From positions 344,726 through 408,725 of the forward strand of contig NZ_BJDT01000001.1 in assembly GCF_005405285.1 (NCBI RefSeq): 64,000 bases of DNA, in the 5' to 3' direction. Shown in pieces: positions 11,497-27,119 of this stretch. Each line of letters starts with the position of its first letter. Position 1 is the first letter of the stretch. Under the pieces are notes generated by a model that did not search any database, was not told the origin of the DNA, and saw only the letters and a list, made by a program, of their open reading frames with translations. The position numbers and the translations under genes were made by a program. This stretch comes from Weissella sagaensis (GTDB lineage Bacteria > Bacillota > Bacilli > Lactobacillales > Lactobacillaceae).

Positions 11497-11549
11497 GGGT
11501 TTATAAATTTATTTGTGTTGTAGAAATTTTTATTGAGGAGAATTTTTAA

Positions 11550-13229
11550 ATGTCTAGTAAGAACATTGTTGTACTAGGAGCCGGCTTTTCTGGTGTATTT
11601 GCTGCTCGTAAGTTGGCTAAAAAGTTAAAGAATACTGATTATCAAATCGTTTTGATTGATCGTCATTCATTTATGACTTATATGACTGAATTGCATGAAG
11701 TTGCTACCAAGCGTGTTGAACCAAAACACGTTCAATTTGATTTAGGTACGCTATTTAAGCACCAATCAAATGTGAAGATTGTCACGGCAAATGTTGAAGA
11801 TATCGACAAGACTGCAAAGGTCGTTAAGACATCAGAAGGTGAATTTACATATGAGAAGCTAGTTATCGCTACTGGTGGTACAACGAACACATTTGGTACA
11901 CCAGGTGTTGAAGAATATGGATACACATTGTGGTCATTTGAAGAAGCTGTCAAGCTTCGTGCACATATTGAAAATGTTATTCGCGAAGGTGCCATGGAGT
12001 CAGATCCAAAGCTCCGTGCTGCTAAATTAACAATTGCCGTTGTCGGATCAGGATTTACTGGTGTCGAATTAGCCGGTGAATTGATTGAACAACGTCGTGA
12101 ATTGGCACGTGATAACAACTTGGATGAATCAGAAATCAAGTTGGAAGTTATTGAAGCTGTGCCAACAATTTTGAACATGCTTTCAGACCGTAAGTTGGCT
12201 GATAAGGGTGAACAATACATGATTAACCACGGTATCACGTTGCGTAAATCAGCTGGTGTTGTTGAAGTTAAAGAACATGCTGCACTATTGAAGGATGGTA
12301 CAGAAGTACCTACTGAAACTTTGGTATGGACTGCTGGTGTTAAGGCTAAGCCACAAGGTGCTAAGTGGGGCTTGCAACAAGGCCCTGGTGGCCGTTTCTT
12401 GGCTGACGAGTACTCACGTGCTTTGGGTGAAAAAGATATCTATGTTGCTGGTGACGTGGCTGCTTATCAAGAACCTGCTTTGGCTGATCCTGATAACCCA
12501 CGTGCTGGTTGGACACCACAAACTGTTGAAGGTGGAGAATCAGCTGCCAATACAGTTGTCCCTAACGTTGTTTATGATGTTACTGGTCAAACTGGTGATC
12601 GTCATGAATTTAAGGGTCACTACCAAGGTTATGCTGTATCAATTGGTTCACATTACACAGTAGGTGTCGTACAACAACTTGGTAACATGAAGCTTGGTAA
12701 GGAAGGTATTCCTGTAACTGGATTCATTGCTAACATGTTCAAGCACATTATTAATTTCTACTTCTTCATGCAAATCACAAGTGGTTACCACATGTTCCAA
12801 TACTCATTGGATGAATTCTTCCGTACACCAAATGGACGTAATCCATTCTTTGGTTGGACTTCACGTGTTGGTAACGTTTTGTGGGCAGTACCTTTGCGTA
12901 TTGTTATGGGAATCACTTGGATCTCACTAGGAGCATCTCTTGGTGGTGGTGCTGGTATTCTTGCCACAATTATTGGTTGGTTGCTAGCCTTTGGTTTGTT
13001 GACTTCATTATCAGCATTCATCGGTTTCATCTTTGGTTTGGTAATGGTATTTGCTGGATCAGGGGTTAGTGTTGCTGCTTTGTTGATTCCATTTGCATCA
13101 CTAGCATTGATGAATGGGGCTGGTCGTACGATTGGATTAGACTACTGGGTAACACCAGTTCTAGAACGTACTTTGGCTAACTCATGGTATGGTAAGGCTC
13201 GTTCACGTTACAACGATATGCGTAAGTAA
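11550..13229 (+). CDS. ndh: Type II NADH dehydrogenase with C-terminal DoxX-like membrane domain
   Basis: 559 residues, against ~400 for ordinary NDH-2. Residues 1-400: FAD-binding GAGFSG (10-15), NADH-binding GSGFTGVELAGEL (166-178), second FAD motif YVAGDVA (298-304). Residues ~440-530 hold three or more hydrophobic segments with an arginine/Trp/Gly pattern (PLRIVMGITWISLG) like DoxX proteins. NDH-2 oxidises NADH and passes electrons to quinone; the tail should anchor it and may shape quinone handling. Similar extended Ndh2 proteins are known from flavin-based extracellular electron transfer loci, but no eet/ppl genes are near. Long leader with its own promoter and terminator. Confidence 0.88.
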   Translation: MSSKNIVVLGAGFSGVFAARKLAKKLKNTDYQIVLIDRHSFMTYMTELHEVATKRVEPKHVQFDLGTLFKHQSNVKIVTANVEDIDKTAKVVKTSEGEFTYEKLVIATGGTTNTFGTPGVEEYGYTLWSFEEAVKLRAHIENVIREGAMESDPKLRAAKLTIAVVGSGFTGVELAGELIEQRRELARDNNLDESEIKLEVIEAVPTILNMLSDRKLADKGEQYMINHGITLRKSAGVVEVKEHAALLKDGTEVPTETLVWTAGVKAKPQGAKWGLQQGPGGRFLADEYSRALGEKDIYVAGDVAAYQEPALADPDNPRAGWTPQTVEGGESAANTVVPNVVYDVTGQTGDRHEFKGHYQGYAVSIGSHYTVGVVQQLGNMKLGKEGIPVTGFIANMFKHIINFYFFMQITSGYHMFQYSLDEFFRTPNGRNPFFGWTSRVGNVLWAVPLRIVMGITWISLGASLGGGAGILATIIGWLLAFGLLTSLSAFIGFIFGLVMVFAGSGVSVAALLIPFASLALMNGAGRTIGLDYWVTPVLERTLANSWYGKARSRYNDMRK

Positions 13230-13461: not shown

Positions 13462-14064
13462 TTAGGCATGTGGTTGATGTTGTGATGCATAGAATGCGGC
13501 AATAACGCCATGGGCAACGCCGACGTTTATCGAACGAACACTACCATATTGGGGAATGTAAACCATGGCGTCAGCAGCAGCAATTAAGTCATCAGCAAGG
13601 CCAAGCTTTTCTTCGCCAAATAAAAAGGCTGATTTGGCAGGGAATTTTACGTCATATAATGATTGTGGATTGTAGCCTGGTGTGTTATCAATAGCATAAA
13701 TTGTATAACCTTCTTGATGTAATTGCTTAAAAATAGCAGGATAATCAATAATGCGATGATGTTCAATATGCTCATAGTTTTGAGTACCCAGTGATCCGCG
13801 ACGATCCCATTTTTTAATACCTTCTTTCGCATCTGGAATGGCCGGGTTTTCAGGGTTCAAGAAAATAAGTTTACGCATACCAAATGCGTTACTATTGCGA
13901 ACAGCAGATGCTTTATTAAAGTCGTGACTTAGATTTTGCATGATTGAAACCATTTCACCACGTTGCATATCAAGAGCGGTACGAATTTCGTCATCTGTTT
14001 TACCTTTATAAAAGTCGGTAACATTACGATAATCTGCTGAACGGCTAAGGTCGATTTCTGACAT
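13462..14064 (-). CDS. TrmH/SpoU-family RNA 2'-O-methyltransferase
   Basis: 200-residue SPOUT methyltransferase. Motif 1 is an N..HD.N..AVRN type stretch (NLSHDFNKASAVRNSNAFG), motif 2 LFGEEKLGLADDL, motif 3 IPQYGSVRSINVGVAHGV. It resembles tRNA ribose methyltransferases of the TrmH group but lacks the domain typical of RlmB. Target RNA not decidable. GGAG lies 6-9 nt before the start. Divergent from the ECF operon. Confidence 0.85.
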   Translation of the reverse strand: MSEIDLSRSADYRNVTDFYKGKTDDEIRTALDMQRGEMVSIMQNLSHDFNKASAVRNSNAFGMRKLIFLNPENPAIPDAKEGIKKWDRRGSLGTQNYEHIEHHRIIDYPAIFKQLHQEGYTIYAIDNTPGYNPQSLYDVKFPAKSAFLFGEEKLGLADDLIAAADAMVYIPQYGSVRSINVGVAHGVIAAFYASQHQPHA

Positions 14065-14257
14065 TATGGTCTCCTTGTGAACTAGGAATAAGCCTAGTTA
14101 AAAACGATTGATTGATAATTTTATTTTAGTCGTGGCAATATCACGTGTCAAACGAAATAATGCCTGATAAAATAAGATGAAATGACACATTTCAAAGCAT
14201 ATTGGTTATTAATTTGTTATGATAATAGTTATGAGAAAACAAAAAGGAGGCGCGAAC

Positions 14258-15100
14258 ATGACGCCAATTATATCGTTGTCGCATGTAGATTACGCATATC
14301 CAAATAGTGATGTACTGGCTTTGCATGATTTGTCACTAACAATTAATCAAGGTGAATGGGTTGCGATTATTGGGCATAATGGGTCTGGTAAATCAACTTT
14401 TGCAAAACTACTAAATTATCTATTAGCACCAACTAAAGGTGAAATTAAAATTAATGATGTTGTCGCTAACGAAGAAAATATGTGGACCATTCGTGACATG
14501 GTTGGCATGGTCTTTCAAAATCCCGATAATCAGTTTGTTGGGGCAACGGTCGCAGACGACGTGGCTTTTGGGATGGAAAATCGTAGTGTTCCTCGTGAAG
14601 AAATGATGAAACGGGTTGACGATGCACTAACTGAGGTACAAATGATGCCTTTTGCTGATCGTGAACCGGCACGACTATCAGGTGGCCAAAAACAACGTGT
14701 TGCCATTGCTTCAGTGTTGGCGTTACAGCCCAAAATATTAATTTTAGATGAAGCAACAGCTATGTTAGATCCTAAAGGCCGTCGTGAAATGATTGCATTG
14801 GTTCGTGATTTAAAAGCACGAATGGGGGATGACTTAACGGTTATCTCGATTACCCACGACATTGATGAAGCGGCAAGTGCAGAGCGCGTAATGGTCATCA
14901 ATGATGGTGAATTAATTGAAACGGGTTTGCCATCAGAAATTTTTGCAAATGCAGATCAATTACGTCGTTTTGGTTTAGCCGTGCCATTTGCAGAACAATT
15001 GAAAGAAAAATTACGGCAGCGGGGAATTACAGTTCCTGATGAATATTTGACAACGGAAGGATTGGTGACGTGGTTATGGCAATCAATTTCAACCAAGTAG
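14258..15100 (+). CDS. ecfA1: ECF transporter ATP-binding protein EcfA1
   Basis: 280-residue ATPase of the energy-coupling factor module. Walker A GHNGSGKST, Q-loop MVFQNPDNQF, signature LSGGQKQRVA, Walker B ILILDEAT. With EcfA2 and EcfT it powers uptake by interchangeable S-components (vitamins, metals). AAAAAGGAGG directly precedes the ATG at 14258; an in-frame ATG at 14231 would place that Shine-Dalgarno inside the gene and is rejected. Overlaps ecfA2 by 25 bp. Confidence 0.95.
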   Translation: MTPIISLSHVDYAYPNSDVLALHDLSLTINQGEWVAIIGHNGSGKSTFAKLLNYLLAPTKGEIKINDVVANEENMWTIRDMVGMVFQNPDNQFVGATVADDVAFGMENRSVPREEMMKRVDDALTEVQMMPFADREPARLSGGQKQRVAIASVLALQPKILILDEATAMLDPKGRREMIALVRDLKARMGDDLTVISITHDIDEAASAERVMVINDGELIETGLPSEIFANADQLRRFGLAVPFAEQLKEKLRQRGITVPDEYLTTEGLVTWLWQSISTK

Positions 15101-15942
15101 GGTTTACCTATCAGCCTAATACGCCGTTTGCAACACCTGGAATCCATGATGTATCTTTTGATATTCCAGAAGGCCAGTTTACCGCTGTGATTGGACATAC
15201 CGGATCTGGTAAATCAACCATGGTACAAAATTTAGATGGACTTGTGCTACCAACGACTGGGACTATTACAATTGGGAATCAAGTGATTACTGCAGATACA
15301 AAGTTAAAGGCATTAAATGAAGTACGCTCACATATTGGCTTAGTTTTCCAATTTCCTGAAGCACAATTGTTTGAACAAACAGTTTTAAAAGATGTGATGT
15401 TTGGCCCTAAAAATTTTGGTGCTTCCGAAGCAGTTGCTAAGGCATCAGCTGAAGTTGCCTTAGCAAAAGTGGGAATTGCACGTGAATTGTATGAACGTTC
15501 ACCATTTGAACTATCTGGTGGCCAGATGCGTCGTGTTGCGATTGCTGGTGTGATTGCTATGTCACCTGATTTATTGATTTTAGATGAACCAACGGCTGGT
15601 TTGGATCCAAAAGGACAACAGGAATTAATGCAGTTGTTTACGGATTTACAAAAAGAAAAGAAAATGACAGTTGTATTGATTACACATCAAATGGAATACG
15701 TGGCGCAATATGCTGACCATGTGGTTGTCTTTGAGCATGGGACGGTGGTTAAGTCAGGGTCGCCGGCAATTATTTTTGCTGATGAAGCATGGTTGCGTGA
15801 AAAACAATTAGATGTACCAGCGGCTAAACAATTCGCTGATGCATTGTCCCAAAAGGGTGTGCAATTACATGATGTGCTGGATATCGATCAACTAGTTGAC
15901 CAGTTAGCTACGCAGCTAAAAAGGGAGGCAAATCATGTTTAG
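15076..15942 (+). CDS. ecfA2: ECF transporter ATP-binding protein EcfA2
   Basis: 288 residues. Walker A GHTGSGKST, Q-loop LVFQFPEAQLFEQTV, signature LSGGQMRRVA, Walker B LLILDEPTAGLD. Forms the heterodimeric ATPase with EcfA1. The start at ATG 15076 lies inside ecfA1 (an in-frame GTG at 15070 is the alternative); the overlap indicates coupled translation. Overlaps ecfT by 8 bp. Confidence 0.95.
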   Translation: MAINFNQVGFTYQPNTPFATPGIHDVSFDIPEGQFTAVIGHTGSGKSTMVQNLDGLVLPTTGTITIGNQVITADTKLKALNEVRSHIGLVFQFPEAQLFEQTVLKDVMFGPKNFGASEAVAKASAEVALAKVGIARELYERSPFELSGGQMRRVAIAGVIAMSPDLLILDEPTAGLDPKGQQELMQLFTDLQKEKKMTVVLITHQMEYVAQYADHVVVFEHGTVVKSGSPAIIFADEAWLREKQLDVPAAKQFADALSQKGVQLHDVLDIDQLVDQLATQLKREANHV

Positions 15943-16738
15943 TAATATGATTATCGGCCGTTATATGCCGGGTGATTCTTGGATTCACCGTTTAGATGCA
16001 CGGACCAAGCTCGTTTTGAGTATTGCTTTTATTTTTGTTATCTTTTTTGCGAATAATGTAATTGGCTATGCGTTTGCAACGGTTTTTACTTTATTGGCAA
16101 TTATGTTAACTGGTTTAGGTGTTGGTGTCTTTATTCGTGGTGTTAAGCCATTGATTTTATTGATGCTCATTACAACACTATTCCAACTGTTCTTCGTGCA
16201 AACGGGTGATGTGCTAATTCATTGGTGGTTTATTAAAATTACCACTGATGGGGTAATTAACAGTATTGTTGTCTTTGTTCGGTTTATGCTTATTATCATG
16301 TTTTCAACAATCTTAACTTTAACAACACAACCACTAGCTGTTGCTGATGGGATGGAGAGCTTGTTGAAACCATTTAAAAAAATTGGCTTACCTGTTTCAG
16401 AGTTGGCTTTGATGCTATCCATTGCGTTGCGTTTTGTGCCAACACTAATGGATGAAGCACAAAGTATTATGAATGCACAACGTGCACGTGGCGTTAGATT
16501 TAATGAAGGTAGTTTAATGACACGTATTAAGTCGTTCGTGCCACTTTTGATTCCGTTGTTTGTGAATGCTATTAAACGAGCAATTGAGTTGGGGGATGCA
16601 ATGGAAGCGCGTGGTTATCGTGGTGGTGATCAACGAACAAAGTATCGTGTACTAACATGGCATCGACAAGATACAGTTGCGATTATTGGTTTTATTATCT
16701 TTACAGTTGTTTTAATTGCAACTCGTTGGATGATGTAG
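15935..16738 (+). CDS. ecfT: ECF transporter transmembrane protein EcfT
   Basis: 267-residue membrane subunit with N-terminal spans and two coupling-helix motifs with Ala-Arg-Gly (RARGVRFNEG and EARGYRGGD) that contact EcfA1/EcfA2. GGGAGG lies just before the ATG. The tight ecfA1-ecfA2-ecfT-truA order, just before rplM-rpsI, is conserved in Firmicutes. No S-component is encoded in the window. Confidence 0.95.
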   Translation: MFSNMIIGRYMPGDSWIHRLDARTKLVLSIAFIFVIFFANNVIGYAFATVFTLLAIMLTGLGVGVFIRGVKPLILLMLITTLFQLFFVQTGDVLIHWWFIKITTDGVINSIVVFVRFMLIIMFSTILTLTTQPLAVADGMESLLKPFKKIGLPVSELALMLSIALRFVPTLMDEAQSIMNAQRARGVRFNEGSLMTRIKSFVPLLIPLFVNAIKRAIELGDAMEARGYRGGDQRTKYRVLTWHRQDTVAIIGFIIFTVVLIATRWMM

Positions 16739-16750
16739 AAAGGATTAAAC

Positions 16751-17500
16751 ATGCCACGTTATAAAGCAACCATTGCTTATGATGGGACGGATTTTTATGG
16801 TTGGCAGGTCCAACCAAATAAGCGGACGGTGCAAGCTGAAATGGAATTAGTCGTTAATAAGATGGCTAAAAACCCAGCTGAGCATATTCGGGTACAAGGA
16901 TCAGGGCGTACCGACGCTCGTGTGCACGCTAAAGGGCAGGTGGCCCATTTCGATTTACCATTCGATATTCCTGCTGAGGCTGTCCGTAAAGGGCTCTCAA
17001 CGATGTTACCGTATGATATCGGCATTAAAAAAGTTGAAAAGGTGTCAGAGAACTTCCACGCACAATATAGTGCCCACGATAAAACATATTTTTACCGTTT
17101 TTCAACAACTGAATTTATCGACCCCTTTAAGCGGAATTATACGGGCCATTGGCATCGTCGTTTGAAACCAGAACTTATGCAACAAGCAATTGGGGATTAT
17201 GTTGGTGAGCATGATTGGTTAAGCTTTGTTGCTTCAGGCTTCCAGCAAAAAACGACCGTGCGAACAGTGTATTCTGCAAAAATGTGGCTTAAACCTGAAG
17301 AGGATGAAATTTGGTTTGAATTTTCAGGAAATGGCTTTTTATATAACCAAATTCGCATTATGGTTGGTGTCTTATTAGAGATTGGTAATGGTGTTCGACC
17401 AGTCGATGATATCCAACGCTTGTTTGCAGTAAAAGACCGTCAACAAGCGCAATTTACTGCACCAGCACAAGGATTATATTTAATGGACGTTAAATATTAA
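16751..17500 (+). CDS. truA: tRNA pseudouridine(38-40) synthase TruA
   Basis: 249 residues. Catalytic GSGRTDARVHA with the Asp is intact; YDGTDFYGWQ near the start and FLYNQIRIMVG near the end are family motifs. It makes pseudouridine in the tRNA anticodon arm. It starts 12 bp after ecfT behind AAAGGATT, so it is in the same operon. Confidence 0.96.
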   Translation: MPRYKATIAYDGTDFYGWQVQPNKRTVQAEMELVVNKMAKNPAEHIRVQGSGRTDARVHAKGQVAHFDLPFDIPAEAVRKGLSTMLPYDIGIKKVEKVSENFHAQYSAHDKTYFYRFSTTEFIDPFKRNYTGHWHRRLKPELMQQAIGDYVGEHDWLSFVASGFQQKTTVRTVYSAKMWLKPEEDEIWFEFSGNGFLYNQIRIMVGVLLEIGNGVRPVDDIQRLFAVKDRQQAQFTAPAQGLYLMDVKY

Positions 17501-17512
17501 AAAAAGGCAAAC

Positions 17513-17620
17513 TTGTCAAGGCCATTCCATTGACTATTTATCTAAAAGGAGATAATATAGTATTCGGTATTGTTTACCAACCGCAAATGGGAATGTCCTG
17601 GTACGACTTTTTTAATTATT
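17513..17620 (+). promoter_or_regulatory. L13 leader upstream of rplM
   Basis: GGCCATTCCATTG (17520-17532) pairs with CAAATGGGAATGTCC (17584-17598) with small bulges, and GTC/GAC close it outside, followed by a T-run. This long-range helix plus GGTACGACTTTTTT ending is the layout of the L13 ribosomal protein leader found before rplM-rpsI in Firmicutes; L13 or its operon partner would bind it. Confidence 0.62.
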
Positions 17621-17658
17621 GGTAAAGTAAACAAACAGAAAACTGGAGGAAATTTTCC

Positions 17659-18102
17659 ATGCGTACAACTTATATGGCAAAGCCAGGTGAGATCGATCGC
17701 AAGTGGTACATCGTTGATGCAACTGATATTGCATTAGGACGTTTGTCAACTGTCGTAGCATCAATCTTGCGTGGTAAGAACAAGCCTACTTATACACCAA
17801 ACATCGATACTGGTGATAACGTTATCGTTATCAATGCTGGTAAGATTGCTTTGACTGGTAAGAAAGCTACTGATAAGATTTATTACCACCACTCAAATCA
17901 CCCTGGTGGTTTGAAGATGCGTCAAGCAGGTGACTTGCGCGAGAAGAACCCACAACGTTTGATCGAACTTTCAGTTCAAGGTATGTTGCCAAAGGGTACT
18001 CTTGGTCACCAACAAGCTTTGAAGCTACACGTGTTTGCTGGTTCAGAGCACACACACGCAGCTCAAAACCCTGAAGTGTTGGATATCACCAACCTTATTT
18101 AA
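17659..18102 (+). CDS. rplM: 50S ribosomal protein L13
   Basis: 147 residues, family length. Motifs: [31 protein letters not shown] and the C-terminal [25 protein letters not shown] precedes the ATG. Forms an operon with rpsI, 26 bp downstream. Confidence 0.97.
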
Positions 18103-18128
18103 TTTAACGAAAGGAGAATAGTTTAATC

Positions 18129-18521
18129 ATGGCTCAAGTACAATACTCTGGAACTGGCCGTCGTAAGAACTCTGTTGCCCGTGTACGTCTAGTACCTGGT
18201 AACGGTGCCATTACGATCAATGGTCTTTCATCAGAACAATACATTCCTTTCGCTAACTTGCGTGAGGTTATGGTGCAACCATTTAACGTTACTGAAACTC
18301 TAGGAAACTACGACGTTTTGGTTAACGTTAACGGTGGAGGTTTCTCAGGTCAATCTGGTGCAATCCGTCACGGTATCGCCCGTGCCCTATTGACAGTTGA
18401 TCCTGACTTCCGCGCTTCATTGAAGAAGGCCGGTCTACTTACTCGTGACCCTCGTAAGAAGGAACGTAAGAAGCCAGGTCTTAAGAAAGCTCGTAAGGCT
18501 TCACAATTCTCAAAGCGTTAA
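18129..18521 (+). CDS. rpsI: 30S ribosomal protein S9
   Basis: 130 residues. [20 protein letters not shown] at the start and the basic tail ending in SQFSKR, which reaches the P-site tRNA, are both present. AAAGGAG precedes the ATG. Confidence 0.97.
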
Positions 18522-18571
18522 TATTTACTTATTACACTTTATGGGATTGTTCAAGATCCGAATATAAAAAT

Positions 18572-18608
18572 AACTCTCAAGTTGGTTTTACCGACTTGGG
18601 AGTTTTTT
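18572..18608 (+). terminator. rplM-rpsI terminator
   Basis: AACTCTCAAGTTGG and CCGACTTGGGAGTT arms around TTTTA, then six T. Confidence 0.88.
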
Positions 18609-18683
18609 GTTGTTCTAGAAGTTTTTGTGTATAACAAAATGTTATAATATCGGTTAGTATAAAACGTATGGGAGGATTAGGTC

Positions 18684-19472
18684 ATGGGTAAAGGCGTTTG
18701 GGTAGGTATCATTGGTATTGTAGCAGTTATTGGCATTGGTGTAGGTGGCGTTTACGCCCATCAACAAACACAAGATAAAACATTAAAAGCTGAGCAAGCT
18801 AAAACAAAATCGATGTCCAAAAAATTAGATGGTATTGATAATAAAGTGTTAAAGGATAAAAAAGATAAGGAAAGTTCATCTAGTAATCAAACAACCAGTG
18901 ACTTAGATACTAGTAGTAGTCAGTCGTCTGTTAAAGATACACAACTCGTTGAATTAACAGATGCTCAAAAACAAGAAATCAATGAAGCGTTTTTAAACTG
19001 GGCTGATAGACGGGCAACTATTGGTAATATGGCCGTGAACGATTACTACTTTGGTCATGGTGCCGCTGGAAGAGGTGATTGGTACGCCAATACGCCAGAT
19101 GGGCAAATGCAAGTGCAAGATGAAAATAATCCGGGGCCAACGGCATTTCCCATTCACATCATTGGCGGTGCGGTATTTTTAACGATGAAAGATGGTGCAA
19201 CTGGGCGTCAAAATGATATTGTTGAATCAACAGCGGGTGGTTATTCAGACAAGGCAGATATGAGTAAACCAATTACAAAATATATTCTTGGCGACAACGG
19301 TAAAGTTTATGAGCTAAAAACAAATGATGGACAAGTTAGTTTAACAACTGGATTCGGTGAATACAGTGATGATGGTACAGCTAGTGATTACCATCCGGAT
19401 CAGAGTTTTGTTGTGTCAGGTGATAGTGATGCACAAAAAGAGTTACAAAAATTAATTAGTGTGTATCGGTAA
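18684..19472 (+). CDS. Membrane-anchored extracellular protein, possibly DUF4767 family
   Basis: 262 residues. A short N-terminal span (about 6-25) is followed by a Lys-rich then Ser/Thr-rich linker (36-85) and a globular domain (~95-262) with LNWADRRATIGNMAVNDYYF and AFPIHIIGGAVFLTM. The layout and these motifs recall DUF4767 secreted proteins of lactobacilli, but I cannot confirm it. GGGAGGATT before the ATG. Single-gene unit; function unknown. Confidence 0.6.
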   Translation: MGKGVWVGIIGIVAVIGIGVGGVYAHQQTQDKTLKAEQAKTKSMSKKLDGIDNKVLKDKKDKESSSSNQTTSDLDTSSSQSSVKDTQLVELTDAQKQEINEAFLNWADRRATIGNMAVNDYYFGHGAAGRGDWYANTPDGQMQVQDENNPGPTAFPIHIIGGAVFLTMKDGATGRQNDIVESTAGGYSDKADMSKPITKYILGDNGKVYELKTNDGQVSLTTGFGEYSDDGTASDYHPDQSFVVSGDSDAQKELQKLISVYR

Positions 19473-19524
19473 GTTTATAGTAAGTAACTGAAGGGTTGGC
19501 AAAATTTAAATACCTATTTGGTTG

Positions 19525-19564
19525 ATATACAAAGCAACATATTGTTTCTTTGTATATTTTTTTG
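19525..19564 (+). terminator. Inverted repeat/terminator before the HTH-GIY-YIG gene
   Basis: ATATACAAAG (19525-19534) and CTTTGTATAT (19548-19557) are perfect arms with a 13-nt loop, followed by a T-run. It most likely ends the upstream transcript; it could also bind the XRE-type regulator domain of the next gene. Confidence 0.65.
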
Positions 19565-19582
19565 TTTTGCGATAATTAAAAT

Positions 19583-21523
19583 ATGGAAATATATAATTTA
19601 ATAAAATCAAAAAGAATTACATTAGGACTTACTCAAGATGATGTTGCGATTAAATTAAATGTTACACGGCAAGCAGTGCAGAATTGGGAAAATAATAAAC
19701 GCGCAATACCTAATAATTTAATAGCTAAGTATTTTAAAATATTGGATTTTAATGCTGCAGAAATTTTATCATTATTTGGATTTTTAAGTGATGATAATCT
19801 AATGATAGAAGAAATTGATTATTCTAAGAGAGGAATAGATGATTTTCAAAAATATGAAAATACTAAAGTATTAATGAATTTTCCGACACTTTATTTAGGA
19901 GTAGGAAAACAGCGCAATAAATACAGTAACATGGTTAAGCAACTAGCATACGTGGGTGAAGCTAGTTCGATCGTGAGAAGAACAAATGAGCACTTAAATG
20001 CGACTAATGACAAGTTGAATAAAATTAAAAAAGATGCTGATAATAATAAAGAAATATTGTATATTGTAGGGCATTCAAAATTTAATAAATCAGCAACTTT
20101 AGAATTAGAGCAAATGTTTATGGATTCATTATTAGGTGATCCAAAGTTTTCTAAAATTTATAATGGTCGTAATAACGGCTTATCAGCGGATTTTTATGAG
20201 CGAAATGCGTATAGAACAGCAATTTTCCCTGAAATTTGGGAACAGTTAAGGCGAAGAAATGTTGTATCTAGTTTGGAAGAAGTACACAATTCAGCGCTAT
20301 TTGCTAATAGTCCTTTTAAGTCACTAAGTCTAAAACAATTAGAGGCAAAAGAGATAATTACTCAAAAAATTAGTGAGACATTGAATAAAATAAGTGATAA
20401 TACGGTTATTAAAATAGAAGGACTTGCTGGATCAGGAAAAACAGTATTGATGTCCCAACTATTCTACGGTTTTTGGAAAAATCCGGTAAAAGTTATAGAA
20501 AATGAAGGGAAAACAAGTCATGAATCTTCAGTGGCATTGTTAGTAAGGCATGAACAACAGCGTCGGACATATGAGCAAATTGCCAGAAAGCTTAATATGG
20601 ATAAAAATATGGTAATGGATGTTTCGACATTTGTTAATAAAGGAAATAAAGTAGATATTTTATTGGTGGATGAAGCACATTTGTTGTGGAGTGGAAATTA
20701 TAGTCGTGCTAAAGCAGAGACGTGGGTCCCAGAACTGATTGCATTACATAAATTAGCTAAAACATTAGTTTTAATTTATGATTCTAATCAACTTGTATCG
20801 GCTAGATCAAAAGTAGCAGATAATGATAAGTTAATAGATATTTTGAATGGTGATAAGACTGTTATGGTTAATTTAGATGAGCAATGGCGTATTAATGCAA
20901 ATCAAAATACCATCGAATGGATTCAAAATTTAGCACATTTTGATAAAAACTCATTAGTTACCATACCTAAGGATAAAAGTTATGAGATTAAATTTTTTGA
21001 TGATGCAGGTGCATTTAGAAAAGCAATAGAAATAAAAAATCAAAATAACGGTTTAAGTAGAATGGTGGCTACTTATGATTGGAAATATTCACAAGGTTCA
21101 AGGCCAAAGAATGGCAATCGCTTTTGGAATGTGACATTTGGGGACGAAGTTGTCCCTTGGAACTTAGAGTTACCGGAAGTAGAAGAAGCACAAAAAAAGC
21201 AAATTCCGTGGCAGGAAATTGAGAGTAGTCTTTATGAAATAGGTAGTGATTTTACAGTCCAAGGTATCGATTTAAATTATGTAGGGGTTATTCTTGGACC
21301 GTCTGTAGTATGGAATGAAGAAAATAATGCTCTTGATATTGATGCTGATAAATCAATGGACCATCAAAAAATTCGCAAAATAAAGGGCACTTATAATACT
21401 GCTGAAAATAAAACATATTTAAAGAACGTTGTTAATGTCTTGTTAACACGTGGCGTGCATGGATTATATATTTATGCAGTGAATGATATATTGCGGGAAA
21501 AGTTAATGGGATTAACAAAATAG
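19583..21523 (+). CDS. XRE HTH - GIY-YIG nuclease - DUF2075 (Schlafen-type) helicase fusion
   Basis: 646 residues in three parts. Residues 1-60: XRE-type helix-turn-helix (LGLTQDDVAIKLNVTRQAVQ). About 100-210: GIY-YIG nuclease with LAYVGEASSIVRRTNEHL (Tyr123-Gly125, Arg133, His137) and a catalytic-type Glu in ATLELEQMF (174/176). About 255-646: DUF2075 NTPase with Walker A GLAGSGKT (280-287), Walker B DILLVDEAH (358-366), DEQWR (432-436) and SDFTVQGIDLNYVGVILG near the end. The domain set suggests nucleic-acid cleavage coupled to ATP, as in phage defence; not proven. AT-rich, no Shine-Dalgarno: TG-C-GATAAT at 19568-19576 puts the RNA start on the ATG. Followed by a damaged HNH nuclease gene. 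Confidence 0.82.
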   Translation: MEIYNLIKSKRITLGLTQDDVAIKLNVTRQAVQNWENNKRAIPNNLIAKYFKILDFNAAEILSLFGFLSDDNLMIEEIDYSKRGIDDFQKYENTKVLMNFPTLYLGVGKQRNKYSNMVKQLAYVGEASSIVRRTNEHLNATNDKLNKIKKDADNNKEILYIVGHSKFNKSATLELEQMFMDSLLGDPKFSKIYNGRNNGLSADFYERNAYRTAIFPEIWEQLRRRNVVSSLEEVHNSALFANSPFKSLSLKQLEAKEIITQKISETLNKISDNTVIKIEGLAGSGKTVLMSQLFYGFWKNPVKVIENEGKTSHESSVALLVRHEQQRRTYEQIARKLNMDKNMVMDVSTFVNKGNKVDILLVDEAHLLWSGNYSRAKAETWVPELIALHKLAKTLVLIYDSNQLVSARSKVADNDKLIDILNGDKTVMVNLDEQWRINANQNTIEWIQNLAHFDKNSLVTIPKDKSYEIKFFDDAGAFRKAIEIKNQNNGLSRMVATYDWKYSQGSRPKNGNRFWNVTFGDEVVPWNLELPEVEEAQKKQIPWQEIESSLYEIGSDFTVQGIDLNYVGVILGPSVVWNEENNALDIDADKSMDHQKIRKIKGTYNTAENKTYLKNVVNVLLTRGVHGLYIYAVNDILREKLMGLTK

Positions 21524-21527
21524 TTTA

Positions 21528-21568
21528 TACTGTACTTATAATGGATAATAAGATTAGTCAGACAGTAT
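21528..21568 (+). promoter_or_regulatory. Promoter flanked by a 7-bp inverted repeat, before the HNH gene
   Basis: TATAAT at 21537-21542 lies between ATACTGT (21528-21534) and ACAGTAT (21562-21568), perfect inverted arms. This is a plausible operator-promoter for the HNH gene, maybe read by the neighbouring HTH protein. No clear -35. Confidence 0.45.
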
Positions 21569-21579
21569 AGGGAAATACA

Positions 21580-22548
21580 ATGCAAAATATTTATAGGTAT
21601 CTTGAAAATTTAGAAAATGATCAAAAAGATGTTTTGGAATGGTTTTAGCATAGACATGGTACATTAGGAAAACTACCAAAAAGCAAAAAAACTAGTAAAA
21701 ATAATTCAATTGTAAGTCCGGCAATGGGAATATTTAAAGCTAAGGATAATGATTTTGCAACTTCTATAAAACAGACTCTTAAAGGACCATATCAGGATTC
21801 TGAAATCATTACAAATAAAGATAAAATAGGAATATTTTTGTATCATCAACAATCGACTAAAGATAATGGTATCTTTCATGATAAAGCTAATTTAGCAACA
21901 AATATTGCATTAACACAAAATATGAATAAAAAAATTCCAATAGGTATTGTCATACAACAAGAAGGAAAAAAAGATGGACAAAATATATATAAATTCTTTA
22001 TTGGTATGATTTTGTCATGGTATGACGGATTTTTTATTATTCAAATTGCAAATGATGAAAAACTAATCGATATGGATAAGTCGGAATCAGAAATAGAAGA
22101 TATATTAACTTTTAGCAATGAAGCTACAGTAAAGGAAGAATTTAATTTTAAAAATATTGTAGATGCTAGAAAGAAACAAGAAAGAGCTATTATAATTCGT
22201 CAAGGTCAAGTCTCATTTCGTAATAAATTATTGCGCATTTATGATGAAAAATGTGTGATTTCTAAAGTGAATGTTGAGTCAGTGTTAGAAGCAGCACATA
22301 TTTCCCCGTATATGGGCAAAGAAACTAATGTGAGCAAGAATGGACTGTTATTAAGAAGTGATTTACATTTACTATTTGATAAAAAACTTATTAGAATTAA
22401 TGATGAATACATTGTTGAGGTATCCCCTGCATTAATAAATTCTGTTTATGGGAAATATAATGGTATTTCGTTACAATTACCCAAAAATAAAAATGATTAT
22501 CCTGATAAAAAAGCATTGGCTAGTCACTATGATTCTTGTGATTTCTAG
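21580..22548 (+). pseudogene. HNH endonuclease with N-terminal unknown domain, interrupted by an in-frame stop
   Basis: A reading frame begins at ATG 21580, has TAG at 21646-21648 (codon 23) and continues open in the same frame to 22548. The part after the next ATG (21724) is 274 residues. Its C-terminal ~120 residues are an HNH_2-type nuclease: FRNKLLRIYDEKC, LEAAHISPY (His192), NGLLLRSDLHLLFD (His215), counted from 21724. The N-terminal ~150 residues are not recognised. The stop may be a nonsense mutation, a sequencing error, or the true start may be 21724 (no good Shine-Dalgarno). Follows the GIY-YIG/DUF2075 gene by 56 bp. Confidence 0.7.
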
Positions 22549-22633
22549 ATGATAGGAAGTTAATATATTTTTATTATTTATGAATTTATTTTTTAATCAG
22601 AAAACTAATCAATGGATATCATTAACTAACATC

Positions 22634-22662
22634 TTGAAAAAATTTCCGAAAACGCGTAATAT
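22634..22662 (+). promoter_or_regulatory. Promoter of the T-box transcript
   Basis: TTGAAA (22634-22639) and TAATAT (22657-22662), 17-bp spacer. The start near 22669 places the full T-box in the RNA. Confidence 0.55.
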
Positions 22663-22668
22663 TTCATT

Positions 22669-22934
22669 AAATAATGATTAGAAAAAGCTATGAAGAGAAG
22701 AGTAGTTTTTGCTTAGCTTGAACAGAGACGGTTGGTAGTTGAGAAAACCTGAAGCAAGAAAAATGAAGATGAACTCGGAGCATTAATGGTTGTGTAAGCA
22801 ATTGTTACGGTAGACTCGTTATCGTCTAACTTATTTTTTAATGAGTTAAAGAGGTACTTTTTGTGAGAAAAGTATGGAATTAAGGTGGTACAGTGAAACT
22901 TTCACCCTTTTTATAAAGGGGTGGAAGTTTTTTT
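22669..22934 (+). promoter_or_regulatory. T-box riboswitch, probable methionine specifier
   Basis: Stem I has the AGTA motif near 22701, a distal loop with GGTTGGTAGTTGAGAAAACC, and a specifier loop TGAAGATGAA before CTC. Aligning with known T-boxes (GAA, one base, codon, purine) puts the specifier at ATG, 22769-22771. The conserved T-box AAGGTGGTAC is at 22882-22891; UGGU pairs with ACCA after an A discriminator, as in tRNA-Met. The terminator is AAACTTTCACCCTTT (22896-22910) with its partner up to 22930 and T-run. AAG (Lys) just upstream is the alternative specifier. Uncharged tRNA would turn on the M20 peptidase. Confidence 0.85.
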
Positions 22935-22970
22935 ATGCATAATGGTAAATTTAAAGGGGAGCATTTTACA

Positions 22971-24122
22971 ATGGAAAAAGCAGAAAAAATTAAAATCTTA
23001 CAGGATTTAGTTAACATCAATACAGTCAATGGTAATGAAATTGAGGTTGCTAAGTATTTGCAACAATTATTAGCTGATCACGGTATTAAAGCAAATATTG
23101 ATGAGTTTGGCGAGAATCGTGCTAACTTGCAAGCAGAAATAGGCAATCATGGTGTTGATGCTAAAACACTGGTATTTTCCGGACATCAAGATACGGTGTC
23201 AATTGATGATGCATCAGCTTGGGAGTATAGTCCATTTGAAGCACATATTGATGGGGATAAATTGTACGGACGTGGTGCTGCTGATATGAAGAGTGGTCTA
23301 GCTGCGGAAGTGATTGCATTAATTGAATTGTATGAAAATTCTGATGTGAATTTGAATGGAACGTTGCGTTTGATTGTGACAGCAGGCGAAGAGTATGGTG
23401 CACAAGGTGCTTATCGGTTGAACGAGCAACATGCAATTGATGATGCTGATGCTCTAGTAATTGGAGAAGCAACCGATGCCCAAATTATTTATGCCCATTC
23501 TGGTAGTTTTAATTATCGTATTAAAAGCTCTGGTAAAGCTGCTCATAGTTCAACACCAGAACGTGGTGTTAATGCGATTCAAGGATTAGTAAACTATATT
23601 AACTTGGAAAAGGATTTGTTTGATGATGCACCACAAGACCCTTATTTGGGTAAAGTGCAACATAGTATTACTGTTATTCGTGGGGGTGAGCAAGTCAATA
23701 CAATTCCTGCGCAAGCAGAGTTACAAGGAAATATTCGACCAACAGAAGCGTTTAATAATGCTAAAGTTATCTTACGAATTCAAGAGACCATTGATCAATT
23801 AAATGATTTATATGATGCCAAACTTGAATTGGAAATTATTCATAATTTTGAAGCTGTTGAAACACAACAAGATAATGAATTTATTCAAACGGTGCAACGG
23901 GCAGCACAAAAATCATTTGATGATCGCCAAGTTGAATTAACCATTATGAATGGTGCAACGGATGCAAGCGTTTTTGTGAAGAATAATGTTGGTTTACCAA
24001 CAGTTATTTTTGGCCCTGATGGTGATGCAGTTACTCATCAATTAAATGAGTACACAACGATTAGTAGTTATTTGAAATTAATCAATGCTTATCAAGATAT
24101 TGCCCGTGATTTTTTGAAGTAA
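22971..24122 (+). CDS. M20 family metallopeptidase (ArgE/DapE-like deacylase)
   Basis: 383 residues starting at ATG 22971 behind AAAGGGGAG; the frame opens at 22935 but that falls in the terminator tail. Dinuclear zinc ligands: SGHQDTV (His72, Asp74), GAADMKSG (Asp105), TAGEEYG (Glu140/141), and THQLNEYT near the C-terminus. The family removes N-acyl groups or cuts small peptides. Control by a probable Met T-box fits genes that recover methionine from N-acyl-Met or peptides, as seen for M20 genes in methionine transporter loci of streptococci. DapE-like desuccinylase (lysine/DAP pathway) is the alternative. Confidence 0.88.
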   Translation: MEKAEKIKILQDLVNINTVNGNEIEVAKYLQQLLADHGIKANIDEFGENRANLQAEIGNHGVDAKTLVFSGHQDTVSIDDASAWEYSPFEAHIDGDKLYGRGAADMKSGLAAEVIALIELYENSDVNLNGTLRLIVTAGEEYGAQGAYRLNEQHAIDDADALVIGEATDAQIIYAHSGSFNYRIKSSGKAAHSSTPERGVNAIQGLVNYINLEKDLFDDAPQDPYLGKVQHSITVIRGGEQVNTIPAQAELQGNIRPTEAFNNAKVILRIQETIDQLNDLYDAKLELEIIHNFEAVETQQDNEFIQTVQRAAQKSFDDRQVELTIMNGATDASVFVKNNVGLPTVIFGPDGDAVTHQLNEYTTISSYLKLINAYQDIARDFLK

Positions 24123-24195
24123 AAATAGTTGATAATGCTTTTATTCACCATTTTTTATATAATGAAATGAATAAGATGAAAATAGGTGAATTCTT

Positions 24196-24837
24196 TTGAT
24201 AAAAAGACATATTAGAAAGCCAGTTAGATTCGGCTTTGTTTTAGGGATTATTATTAGTCTCTTGGTAGGGGCAGGTATTGCATTGGCTTCATATAAAATC
24301 AGCCATCAGAATAATAAAAGTAATTTAACGCCTAAAACGCAAACCGTATCACAAGATACTTTGACTGTTAAATCATTAACCAAAGAGAAAAAAATTGTTA
24401 TGGTTAATTTAGGGTTATCTGAAATTTTAAATGAAAAACGGACAACTAAACTATTTGGTCAAGATATTGTTGGTACTAATCGTCAAAAAATTATGCAAGC
24501 ATCATTTGATGCTGAATTGGGTATTGATGGGAAAGATGTCAAAATAACGGCAACTGGAGATAATACTTATAAAATAACTGTTAAAAAATTTATTTTTATT
24601 GGTTACAGCAATCCTAACTTTAAGGTGTTAGATGAGCATAATGGTGTTTTTAGTTCATTTACTGCTGATGTTAGTGAAACTGAAATGATTAATAAAGTGT
24701 TAGATACAAAATCAAAACAAAAATATGTTGCTAAATATAATGATTTATTGGAGCAATCAACAACGGATTTTTATCGAAATATTGTTACGGCAACTAATCC
24801 GAAAGCTAAGTTGACGTTTATATTTCCTGAAAAGTAA
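24196..24837 (+). CDS. Membrane-anchored protein, possibly DUF4230 family
   Basis: 213 residues from a TTG start behind AGGTG. One N-terminal span (about 12-32), then an extracytoplasmic domain with FDAELGIDGKDVKI and KITVKKFIFIGYSNPNFKV that looks like DUF4230. TATAAT at 24158-24163 may be its -10. Function unknown. Confidence 0.6.
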   Translation: MIKRHIRKPVRFGFVLGIIISLLVGAGIALASYKISHQNNKSNLTPKTQTVSQDTLTVKSLTKEKKIVMVNLGLSEILNEKRTTKLFGQDIVGTNRQKIMQASFDAELGIDGKDVKITATGDNTYKITVKKFIFIGYSNPNFKVLDEHNGVFSSFTADVSETEMINKVLDTKSKQKYVAKYNDLLEQSTTDFYRNIVTATNPKAKLTFIFPEK

Positions 24838-24890
24838 TTAATAGGTGAATATTATTTAAATGGTTTATACTGTAGCTATGGAGGGATAAT

Positions 24891-25259
24891 ATGACTTGGA
24901 ATAAAGAACGATTAACATATTTTAACGATCATGATGATTTTCATATTGCGCCATTTCGTGCTAGTGGGGTAGCCGGCACACCTACTTGGATTTGGTCTGT
25001 TGTTGTGGATGGACGTTTGTTTGTTCGTGCTTATAATGGTGTACATTCATCATGGTATCAAAGTGCAGTGGCTCAACATGACGGTAATATTGTGTCAAAT
25101 GGTGAGCGTTTGAATGTGATTTTTAAATCAGAAAAGGATCCAACAATTTTAGATAAAATTGATGAGGCATACCATGTCAAATATGACCCTAGTCCATATG
25201 TTGCGCCAATGCTCTCAGAAAAAACAAGAAATGCAACAGTTGAAGTATTGCCAAAATAA
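24891..25259 (+). CDS. DUF2255 family protein
   Basis: 122-residue soluble protein. HIAPFRASG, GTPTWIWSVVVDGRLFVRAY and WYQSAVAQHDG match the DUF2255 (COG4334) pattern of small proteins of unknown function. GGAGGGATA precedes the ATG. Possibly co-transcribed with the gene before (53 bp gap); followed by a terminator. Confidence 0.78.
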   Translation: MTWNKERLTYFNDHDDFHIAPFRASGVAGTPTWIWSVVVDGRLFVRAYNGVHSSWYQSAVAQHDGNIVSNGERLNVIFKSEKDPTILDKIDEAYHVKYDPSPYVAPMLSEKTRNATVEVLPK

Positions 25260-25297
25260 AGTAAGCGTTACCTAGTGTTTTAAATTAGAAATAAATT

Positions 25298-25337
25298 AAA
25301 AAGTAGCTATAACTTAAGGGTTATGGCTACTTTTTTT
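25298..25337 (+). terminator. Terminator after the DUF2255 gene
   Basis: AAAAAGTAGCTATAAC and GTTATGGCTACTTTTT arms around a short loop; T-run to 25337. Confidence 0.86.
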
Positions 25338-25393
25338 AATGATATTTTTTATAAAACGTGCGCTTCCTTATGATTTATAAGTGATTAATACGC

Positions 25394-25422
25394 TTGCTTA
25401 CTCCCGAAATATTAGATATAAT
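25394..25422 (+). promoter_or_regulatory. Promoter of the oppA-like gene
   Basis: TTGCTT (25394-25399) and a perfect TATAAT (25417-25422), 17-bp spacer. Start near 25429; leader ~50 nt. Confidence 0.65.
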
Positions 25423-25481
25423 TTAGAAAATTAAAAATTTTTAATTTATTGGGCAATTTTTTTGTTAGAGGGGTAAGGTTA

Positions 25482-27119
25482 ATGGGAATTAATAAAATAG
25501 GCTGGCAGACGGCCGTACTAGCGACGAGTGTCATCGCTGGAATTGGGGTAGTAACGCATACAGCTGATGCCAAGGCGAAACAGGTTATTAGTACGTATTC
25601 TAGTACTGAAATTTCATCGTTGGATACTGCAAAGGCAACAGAATTAAATGCTTTTACACAGTTAGATAATATTACAGAAGGTTTGTATGTTTATGATAGT
25701 AAAGGACGACCACAGAAAGCTTTAGCACAAAAGACGAAGATTTCTGAGGATAAAAAAACATACACAATTGATATTCGCAAAGATGCTAAGTGGAGTAATG
25801 GTGATCCAGTAACGGCTGCAGACTTTGTTTTCGCATGGCAACGAGCTGTTGATCCAAAGACGGCTAGTGAGTATGCTTATTTATTCGATAACATTGAAAA
25901 TGCTAAAGCAATTCAAGATGGTGAAAAGACACCGGATACTTTGGGCGTTAAGGCAACTGATAAGCATCAATTACAGATTCAGTTAGTGGCACCGCAAGAG
26001 TACTTTAAAATGATTTTGGCGCGTGAAACATTAGCGCCATTGAATGAAAAGTTCGTTGAACAACAGGGTGATAAATATGGAACATCATCTAAAACAACGC
26101 TATATAATGGACCGTTTGTAAGTAAGGGCTGGTCTGGTTCGACAACGCAATGGACGTTAAATAAAAACCCCTACTATTGGGATAAAAAGCATGTTAAGTT
26201 GAGCAAGATTAATTACTCAGTTATTAAAGATCCTTCAACTGCTTATAATTTATATCAAACTAAGAAGTTAGATCAAATGACGTTAGTTGGCGAGCAAGCA
26301 CAACAATTATCAAAGCATAAAGATGTTGTGAAACGTAATTTAGCTGCAACATCGTACTTGCAATATAATTTGAAAAAGAATAATGGTCTGGAGAATGCAA
26401 AGATTCGCCAAGCCATTTCACTTTCAATTAATCGTAAGCAATTAACTGAAAGAATTTTAAAGAATGGTTCAAAACCAGCTGCTGGCTTTGTCCCACGTCA
26501 AGTCGCCACAAAACCAAATGGCAAGGAAGATTTCTATGATGCGACAAAGGTTAAAAATACGGCAGAGTATAAACCAAAGTTAGCAAAGAAGTTATTTGCT
26601 GAAGGTCTAAAAGAAGTTGGCAAAGATAAAATTAGTGCAACGGTGATTACTGCTGATGCAAGTGCTTCTGAGCAAGTTGCTGTCTTTATTCAAGATCAAC
26701 TACAAAAAAACTTACCCAAGCTTGAATTGACATTGCAAAAGGTACCACAGAAGAGCCGCATTGCTTCTGTTAATGCAGGTAACTTTGATATTTCATTCCA
26801 GGGTTGGTCAGCTGACTTTGCTGATCCGTATACTTTCTTGCAAATTTTCCCAAGTGATAGTGCGCAAAACCATACTGGTTGGAAAAATGAGGCATATGAT
26901 CAAGCCATTACAGATTCATTGAATAAGAATGCAGCTAATAAAACAGCGCGTTGGAATGATTTAGTGAAGGCTGAAAAGATTTTGATGAAGGATCAAGTTG
27001 TTACACCAATTTATCAAACAAATAATGAGGACTTAGTTAACCCACGTCTAAAAGGCATTGGTTATAACCAAATTAACGGACATTATAGTTACAAGCTAGC
27101 TTATGTAACGGGTAAATAA
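25482..27119 (+). CDS. Peptide ABC transporter substrate-binding protein (OppA family)
   Basis: 545 residues from ATG 25482 (GGGGTAAGG upstream). Signal peptide 1-~32 (HTADAKA), then the family-5 solute-binding fold: SLDTAKATELNAF, TIDIRKDAKWSNGDPVTAADF, NGPFVSKGW, FQGWSADFADPYTFLQIF. Binds oligopeptides for import. The usual lipobox Cys is absent, so it would be secreted or retained otherwise; no oppBCDF genes are nearby, so it is an orphan receptor. The M42 aminopeptidase follows after 24 bp, suggesting a peptide-use pair. Confidence 0.9.
   Translation: MGINKIGWQTAVLATSVIAGIGVVTHTADAKAKQVISTYSSTEISSLDTAKATELNAFTQLDNITEGLYVYDSKGRPQKALAQKTKISEDKKTYTIDIRKDAKWSNGDPVTAADFVFAWQRAVDPKTASEYAYLFDNIENAKAIQDGEKTPDTLGVKATDKHQLQIQLVAPQEYFKMILARETLAPLNEKFVEQQGDKYGTSSKTTLYNGPFVSKGWSGSTTQWTLNKNPYYWDKKHVKLSKINYSVIKDPSTAYNLYQTKKLDQMTLVGEQAQQLSKHKDVVKRNLAATSYLQYNLKKNNGLENAKIRQAISLSINRKQLTERILKNGSKPAAGFVPRQVATKPNGKEDFYDATKVKNTAEYKPKLAKKLFAEGLKEVGKDKISATVITADASASEQVAVFIQDQLQKNLPKLELTLQKVPQKSRIASVNAGNFDISFQGWSADFADPYTFLQIFPSDSAQNHTGWKNEAYDQAITDSLNKNAANKTARWNDLVKAEKILMKDQVVTPIYQTNNEDLVNPRLKGIGYNQINGHYSYKLAYVTGK

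Follow-up and report, generated by a model that had tools for sequence, protein, structure and literature searches.

Genes and their partners

What does a single gene do for a bacterium when it joins a helix-turn-helix (HTH) domain, a GIY-YIG nuclease domain and an SLFN group-3 (SLFN-g3) helicase domain in one protein? We studied such a gene, here called ORF1, in Weissella sagaensis. It lies in a stretch of 64,000 nucleotides (contig NZ_BJDT01000001.1, positions 344,726 to 408,725, of assembly GCF_005405285.1), which we call the window and whose positions we use throughout. A first-pass annotation had proposed that ORF1 and an HNH nuclease gene behind it form a phage-defence unit. Our reading is that ORF1 is probably a self-repressing, single-chain nuclease-helicase defence gene with an optional partner, of SRA-HNH type, which is broken here. 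We put the probability of this reading at roughly 60%.

ORF1 is intact and under purifying selection

The 646-residue, three-domain protein described by the first-pass annotation is indeed encoded by one open frame, with a match for each domain. HTH_3 scores 36.6 bits at residues 7-58 (the cut-off is 23), and PF09848, the SLFN-g3 helicase family, which we take to be the former DUF2075, scores 236.8 bits at residues 275-633 (the cut-off is 24) and spans positions 3-353 of a profile of 354. In a whole-genome profile search, the latter match reached 6.2e-71. GIY-YIG (PF01541) matches residues 118-177, just under its cut-off. A profile search of the PDB with ORF1 gave only matches to P-loop proteins in general and one, at 6.4e-5 over the ATPase part, to 9kwf, a "putative deoxyribonuclease".

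The catalytic and Walker residues are kept, as had been claimed. We aligned 16 sequences, including the window's own (the lowest identity to it is 33%). Invariant in all 16 are Y104, Y123-V-G-E126, R133, E176 and N194 of the nuclease; G280, A282, G283, G285, K286, D363 and E364 of the Walker A and B region; and Q434, R436, Q560, G561, D563, R623 and G624 of the helicase. H137 and T287 are nearly invariant. (The GIY-YIG, Walker and helicase motif names are presumed to fit these alignment columns.) The first GIY-YIG motif in the alignment is PT-x-Y, followed by YVGE.

ORF1 has an omega of 0.11 against the copy in W. thailandensis JCM 10695 (G023) and also 0.11 against the first 536 codons, the readable part, of the copy in G013. 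Compared with the window copy, the parts beyond the HTH have an omega of 0.08-0.12, and the HTH part is less constrained (0.27 for G023 and 0.14 for G013). Because the domains are present, the key residues are invariant and omega is about 0.1, ORF1 is a real gene under purifying selection. ORF1 and its neighbour are also AT-rich, as noted before: GC is 0.26-0.35 in windows across 19500-22750, versus 0.34-0.46 in 14000-18500. Low GC (0.29-0.36) persists from 24000 to 25500.

A palindrome and a predicted leaderless promoter accompany the HTH domain

We found nine copies of ORF1 that bear the HTH: those of the window's own genome (G000), W. bombi R-53094 (G001), W. thailandensis, and G013, G204, G339, G182, G282 and G295. 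An AGCAAC..GTTGCT palindrome lies 5' of all nine, at about -60 to -25. Its core is exact in eight of them, and the window copy has one substitution. The outer arms vary between copies and are mostly still complementary. Arms of at least 12 bp with at most one mismatch are present in 8/9 copies (not G204), versus 12 of 2700 mononucleotide shuffles. All nine copies also have TG[A/C]GATAAT ending exactly six bases before the ATG, and none of the nine has a Shine-Dalgarno-like motif in the 70 bases upstream. Because the -10 element is six bases from the ATG and there is no Shine-Dalgarno motif, we predict that the ORF1 transcript is leaderless. (A consensus promoter scan, which needs a match at -35, did not list the extended -10 element at 19568..19576.)

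These features were absent from relatives that lack the HTH. We compared the upstream regions of 34 HTH-less loci, with start codons set mechanically and at least two loci (L039 and L041) anchored on gene fragments. The palindrome motif was found at 0/34, an inverted repeat of at least 8 bp with a spacer of up to 10 in the last 120 bases at 0/34, and TGNGATAAT in the last 40 upstream bases at 0/34. The HTH and the palindrome come together, as expected for an autorepressor. Overall, these sequences are good evidence that the fused HTH, which would bind DNA, autoregulates ORF1 via the palindrome. This agrees with the autoregulation that the first-pass annotation had proposed, since the leaderless-type promoter and the palindrome were seen only with HTH-bearing copies.

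That annotation had listed two inverted repeats as possible regulatory sites. The first, at 19525, is real and conserved in position. The second (ATACTGT/ACAGTAT) is in the sequence, but we did not see it by eye in the comparable gaps of W. bombi and W. thailandensis, and we dropped it as a candidate. No terminator-like site was listed between ORF1 and the HNH gene.

HTH-bearing copies have a single origin, and the HNH gene is optional

We searched 28 Weissella genomes, 378 genomes of the family, 345 of the order (at E 1e-25) and 398 of the phylum. The first 270 residues of ORF1 have a match in 101/378 family genomes, from 26 of 40 genera. The match reaches residue 1 in nine genomes, five of which belong to a second genus (g17); the other four are among the 28 Weissella (G000, G001, G013 and G023). 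In the order set, the window's genome alone matches through the HTH; this draw evidently did not include the other eight carriers. In a tree of 48 helicase sequences, the nine HTH-bearing copies form one clade (support 100/100), whose neighbours are four relatives without the HTH, from Weissella and from a plasmid of Fructilactobacillus. The HTH-bearing clade has a single origin and spans two genera.

The HNH gene is present in 3/28 Weissella genomes, where it always adjoins the HTH-bearing gene, and is absent from G013. In the family set, at E 1e-15, we found no HNH gene beyond the same three Weissella, and none was among the ORFs listed next to the five g17 copies. In the phylum set, the HNH query found the window's genome and one C-terminal match. 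In other words, the two genes are adjacent in 3/4 Weissella copies and in 0/5 copies from the second genus. The pair is a Weissella association and not a fixed system, and the HNH gene is optional. Of the proposed defence unit, the defence-type machinery stands, and restriction genes occupy the site in some other Weissella (see below), but the pair as a fixed unit does not.

Six of the nine HTH-bearing copies have ORF1 as one open frame (the window, G023, G204, G339, G182 and G282). In W. bombi (L036:9318-11266), and also in G016 (L041, G016:C13:270518-272226), the nuclease and helicase halves are in separate ORFs, with the split point near residue 240-264. This may be either damage or a true two-gene form.

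The neighbouring gene is interrupted and of probable SRA-HNH type

The HNH gene had been placed 56 bp downstream of ORF1. The frame that begins there, at ATG 21580, is stopped by a TAG at 21646-21648 (codon 23); the open HNH ORF starts at 21724, which is 200 bp after ORF1, and we saw no Shine-Dalgarno motif before it by eye. The intact homologue in W. thailandensis has 333 amino acids, and its alignment reaches 5' of 21724. HNH relatives in two Rhizobium species likewise extend upstream of 21724 in alignment. When the full-length W. thailandensis protein is used as the query, it meets "1 TAG" in the window's genome. In W. bombi, the gene contains a single TGA at about four-fifths of its length. 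The damage to the window's gene looks recent because omega is still 0.13-0.14 (window versus W. thailandensis and W. bombi). The interrupted gene is probably inactive.

The HNH_2 domain itself is present, as described before (45.4 bits in the window ORF). Its residues H192, N206, H215 and D219 (window numbering) are invariant in 3/3 and in 6/6 aligned proteins, and the ORF matches an HNH model of PADLOC over residues 123-269 (2.2e-16). The C-terminal part of the protein has sequence matches to 6yex (titled VcaM4I) and to TagI (6ghs).

To see what the N-terminal part might be, structure prediction had been suggested. We modelled the W. thailandensis sequence with five relatives, and the model has an SRA fold (mean pLDDT 57). 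With Foldseek, TagI came first (E 7.6e-5) and was the sole match at E up to 0.001. With a second structural aligner, the SRA domain of SUVH5 had a Z of 10.1 (rmsd 3.0, 122 residues aligned), TagI 8.6 (rmsd 13.3 over both domains), ScoMcrA 7.6, and LpnPI, AspBHI and MspJI 6.3-6.8. The first 43 structural rows were nearly all SRA proteins; four were titled just as oocyte lattices, which presumably contain UHRF1, and one was the HNH part of VcaM4I. A PYxD motif and a later Tyr are invariant in 6/6 aligned HNH proteins and might correspond to the base-flipping pocket (Y55/D58/Y67) of TagI. The model gives good but not final evidence that this is an SRA-HNH, modification-dependent (type IV) enzyme.

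A scan of genome contigs for the HNH protein gave 6 loci; it used only two narrow peptide patterns, so this is not a census. A scan of viral contigs gave two loci, 37% identical. We recognised no GIY-YIG helicase ORF beside distant HNH relatives in two Vibrio, a Rhizobium and an archaeal metagenome-assembled genome. In the last of these, two nearby ORFs resemble DNA methyltransferases (by eye).

HTH-less relatives often adjoin a MazG-like gene

The HTH-less GIY-YIG/SLFN-g3 core of Lactobacillaceae shows 33-52% identity among 10 aligned proteins. By a local model, a MazG-like gene (about 100-135 amino acids) adjoins 22/42 HTH-less loci, either upstream or downstream and on either strand, and it is found at 0/9 HTH-bearing loci and in 0/20 control stretches. 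(Of the HTH-less loci counted, 17 had served to build the model; the zeros at HTH-bearing loci and controls are independent of that. A non-adjacent match at L039, of 3.9e-5, was dropped, which lowered the count from 23 to 22.) The HTH-less loci include near-copies (L090, L112) and short ones (L193-L195); the loci with MazG-like neighbours are among L081-L111 and L193.

We also scanned neighbours with Pfam and PADLOC, using 119 proteins at 20 of the 34 HTH-less loci (those for which a control stretch was taken) and 119 proteins in the 20 control stretches. For each set we considered the 25 commonest families, so rarer genes are uncounted in both. The MazG-like family PF12643 was found in 13/119 neighbours and was not among the 25 families for the controls. 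Cas9 was found in 3 of the 119 neighbours, Cas1 in 2 and Cas2 in 2. (Judging by lengths and starts, the loci are L093 and L098, where the ORF directly downstream is Cas9, and L097, where Cas9 lies two ORFs further on.) Among the 25 commonest PADLOC families, Cas9 in 3 neighbours compares with one type I restriction-modification (R-M) set in the controls, and mad3 was matched by 2 in each.

Relatives of ORF1 are also on plasmids, and we inspected the neighbours in the best 5 of 34 plasmid records. These were a DNA adenine methylase and an HNH gene; a helicase and DUF2357; HsdS and an N-6 methylase; Cas6/Cas10 (CRISPR III-A); and DUF262 with a restriction endonuclease. As for proximity to known defence genes, which the first-pass annotation had proposed to check, there are restriction and CRISPR examples, but no clear PADLOC excess over controls.

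The site downstream of rpsI holds other restriction systems in some Weissella

ORF1 lies downstream of rplM-rpsI, and the gene content there differs among the 28 Weissella genomes. (In this survey, G010 was ended by a contig edge, and an integrase in G020 was judged by its similar start alone.) Of the 24 genomes that lack the HTH-bearing gene, we scanned the site in six that were picked for their unusual-looking genes (G003, G009, G012, G018, G019 and G024). G019 has matches to DndF, DndG and DndH directly downstream of rpsI (L151, 549-9107); G018 has HsdM and HsdR; and G012 has a C5 methylase and a match to a type II restriction enzyme beside a broken GIY-YIG helicase. The others have an nSTAND3 NTPase (G024), a phage integrase (G003) and a generic helicase (G009). 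The W. bombi site has a KAP NTPase (PDC-S49) besides the HTH-bearing gene. The region downstream of rpsI holds other restriction systems in some Weissella. These are examples and not a rate, because just six of the 24 genomes were scanned and they were chosen for unusual genes.

In the window, the other sizeable ORFs in 18684-24122 are a 262-amino-acid ORF without a Pfam match, the HNH ORF and a 395-amino-acid peptidase-like ORF (by eye); we saw no cognate methyltransferase for ORF1 among them. A gene without a Pfam match, encoding 250-268 amino acids with a stretch at the N-terminus that looks hydrophobic by eye, lies beside the island, at 18684-19472 in the window, with copies at L036:6714-7520 and 11337-11792, L037:8681-9469 and L038:18470-19225. 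In W. bombi, a full and a shortened copy of this gene flank ORF1 and the HNH gene, and they might aid recombination at the site.

Table 1. Features of the ORF1 locus in the window
Feature	Position	Strand	Basis
Palindrome, probable operator of the fused HTH; arms ATATACAAAG (19525-19534) and CTTTGTATAT (19548-19557)	19525..19557		Kept in 9/9 HTH-bearing copies
Extended -10 element TGCGATAAT, ending six bases 5' of the start codon; predicted leaderless promoter	19568..19576	+	9/9 HTH-bearing copies
ORF1, HTH - GIY-YIG - SLFN group-3 helicase fusion, 646 aa, intact	19583..21523	+	ORF, domain matches, alignment, omega
XRE-type HTH_3 domain, residues 7-58	19601..19756	+	Pfam match
GIY-YIG nuclease domain, about residues 100-198	19880..20176	+	Pfam match (118-177) and invariant Y104, Y123, R133, E176, N194
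SLFN-g3 helicase domain (PF09848), residues 275-633	20405..21481	+	Pfam match
Interrupted SRA-HNH endonuclease gene, ATG 21580	21580..22548	+	In-frame TAG 21646-21648; intact W. thailandensis homologue
Remaining open ATG ORF, 274 aa: part of the SRA-like domain and the HNH, minus the first 48 codons	21724..22548	+	ORF list, Pfam, alignment
HNH_2 nuclease domain; H192, N206, H215, D219 invariant	22252..22401	+	Pfam, alignments, sequence match to 6yex and 6ghs

Comparison with described systems

The Weissella HNH protein resembles TagI (6ghs; PMC6212794), which has an N-terminal SRA-like fold and, at its C-terminus, an HNH domain in which the H, N and H residues are followed by an Asp, four positions beyond the last His; sequence similarity is seen in the HNH part alone. 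Unlike TagI, the Weissella gene has a GIY-YIG helicase as its neighbour, and the window copy is interrupted. CMoRE (PMC12923530), a type IV restriction system, is like ORF1 a single-protein GIY-YIG nuclease for defence, but it has GIYxY-YIG and a C-terminal modification sensor, while in the 16 aligned sequences the motif, judged by eye, is PT-x-Y and lacks the third Tyr, and the C-terminus of ORF1 is a helicase. SNIPE (PMC13190303) is another defence protein with a GIY-YIG nuclease, but with a membrane anchor and DUF4041 instead of the HTH and the SLFN-g3 helicase. PD-T4-3 and PD-lambda-1 are listed with GIY-YIG as well (PMC10952713). Hna (PMC13381803) is an anti-phage system as well, with DNA degradation in the title of its paper.

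For the control of ORF1, the closest comparison is the AhdI C protein, an HTH regulator with a leaderless transcript that controls a nuclease (PMC5333194); the EcoRV C transcript, unlike AhdI's, is not leaderless (PMC5333194). ORF1 differs from C proteins in that its HTH is inside the nuclease-helicase and no cognate methyltransferase was seen adjacent. The HTH-less GIY-YIG/SLFN-g3 genes paired with MazG-like genes have the same nuclease-helicase core as ORF1, but they have no HTH, no palindrome was found with them, and a MazG-like neighbour is at 22/42 of their loci. MazG NTP pyrophosphohydrolases are named among predicted defence domains (PMC13092281), and PMC12839542 cites a preprint from 2025 about bacterial Schlafen proteins in defence against phages. 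In the literature that we searched, we found no description of the GIY-YIG/SLFN-g3 helicase family or of its pairing with MazG-like genes. Nor did we find a paper that joins DUF2075 with GIY-YIG or "defense" (most subscription journals and preprints were outside this search). The arrangement of ORF1 and its neighbour seems to combine familiar defence components in a variant that has not been described.

How ORF1 might work

We infer nuclease and helicase activity, the reading of modified bases and a role in defence from the sequences. In the reading that we favour, a dimer of the HTH would bind the palindrome, whose right arm would overlap a -35 region; this step is well supported by sequence. 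The bound HTH would repress a leaderless transcript beginning at the ATG or right beside it, and would keep a potentially self-harmful nuclease-helicase scarce. During infection, the helicase part may engage foreign or replicating DNA and translocate, and the GIY-YIG part may cut. ORF1 protein that is drawn off its operator could relieve the repression. In genomes with an intact neighbour, such as that of W. thailandensis, the fold of the HNH protein suggests that the SRA domain would read a modified base and the HNH would cut, which would add type IV restriction.

A stronger form of this is doubtful: ORF1 might be its own sensor, so that infection, by pulling the protein onto phage DNA, would empty the operator, switch on the leaderless transcript and let the defence amplify itself. 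If true, this titration switch would be an immune system of one gene that does without the MazG-like partner found with many relatives.

Evidence against and alternative explanations

Several observations weigh against a self-repressing defence gene. The GIY-YIG match, at 21.5 bits, falls short of the Pfam cut-off of 22.6. The PADLOC matches of ORF1 are partial (the best is 5.1e-7, to PDC-S41 over residues 542-631), and none to a system model was full-length. The predicted structure of ORF1, from a two-row alignment, has a pLDDT of 39.5 and is unusable, and the mean pLDDT for the SRA-HNH model is also a caution. The neighbours of HTH-less relatives matched 62 PADLOC families and the controls 60. 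ORF1 is broken or split in 3/9 HTH-bearing copies (G001, G013 and G295), so the gene is dispensable. The core of the palindrome, with spacers of 1-8, has 3-16 sites per genome in 12 genomes (0-4 for a reversed-pattern control), so the core is not unique by itself. The window's genome has nine exact core sites, none of them at ORF1, because the window copy has the substitution. It is possible that the palindrome and a T-run act as a terminator, or have a double role. We considered a mere terminator of the upstream gene, and we prefer an operator because the palindrome accompanies ORF1 across different upstream genes, and because W. thailandensis has another long inverted repeat and T-run 5' of the palindrome.

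Finally, 24/28 Weissella genomes have an SLFN-g3 helicase as a standalone ORF (393-505 codons), so this family of helicases also serves in roles that are not necessarily defence. This leads to the best of the other explanations, which we still consider improbable: ORF1 could be a regulated nuclease-helicase for housekeeping or for DNA repair or recombination, like the standalone SLFN-g3 genes of Weissella, and the SRA-HNH gene could be unrelated cargo at an insertion site. At E 1e-20, the standalone ORF was not found in G000, G001, G013 and G026, and because of this the fusion might stand in for it. (The window's genome has, elsewhere, one weak PF09848 match below the cut-off, L002.) The five second-genus copies without an adjacent HNH gene, and the lack of a clear PADLOC excess around HTH-less relatives, would fit with housekeeping too. 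However, W. thailandensis has both the fusion and the standalone gene (the other three of the four Weissella with the fusion lack the latter). Also, GIY-YIG/SLFN-g3 genes are patchy (101/378 family genomes), are sometimes broken, and are on plasmids, where all five of those inspected (the best 5 of 34) have them near R-M, CRISPR or helicase genes.

Less likely again is something like a toxin-antitoxin or abortive-infection system, in which the HTH would both repress transcription and restrain the nuclease, and relief would kill the cell. Autorepression is common to toxin-antitoxin-like systems; the HTH of ORF1 has weak matches to antitoxin and phage-repressor models (the NCBIfam ones are under their cut-offs); and the MazG-like partner of many HTH-less relatives is at 0/9 HTH-bearing loci. 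But there is no separate antitoxin, what the protein carries besides the HTH is a nuclease and a helicase domain, and the HTH is missing from its four nearest relatives in the tree.

We rejected the idea of selfish or mobile DNA, with a homing-type nuclease that helps the island to spread, as the least likely: GIY-YIG is a classic class of homing nuclease, G003 has a phage integrase at the same site and GC drops across the locus, but just 4/50,697 phage records match ORF1 (all at under 60% identity), 0/24 pattern matches in IMG/VR were confirmed, we saw no integrase-like ORF in 17000-25500 by eye, and a helicase fused to the nuclease is not a known homing layout.

The first-pass annotation had named a lack of co-occurrence, random neighbourhoods and lost residues as grounds for giving up its idea of defence. 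Judged on these grounds, the idea holds up, with the two genes co-occurring in a single genus.

Implications

ORF1 points to a family of GIY-YIG/SLFN-g3 helicases with a recurrent MazG-like partner. It would be a natural variant of this family whose effector contains its own regulator, and the conserved putative operator makes this control directly testable. The locus also marks the region downstream of rpsI in Weissella, which are food-associated bacteria, as a place where different restriction systems settle.

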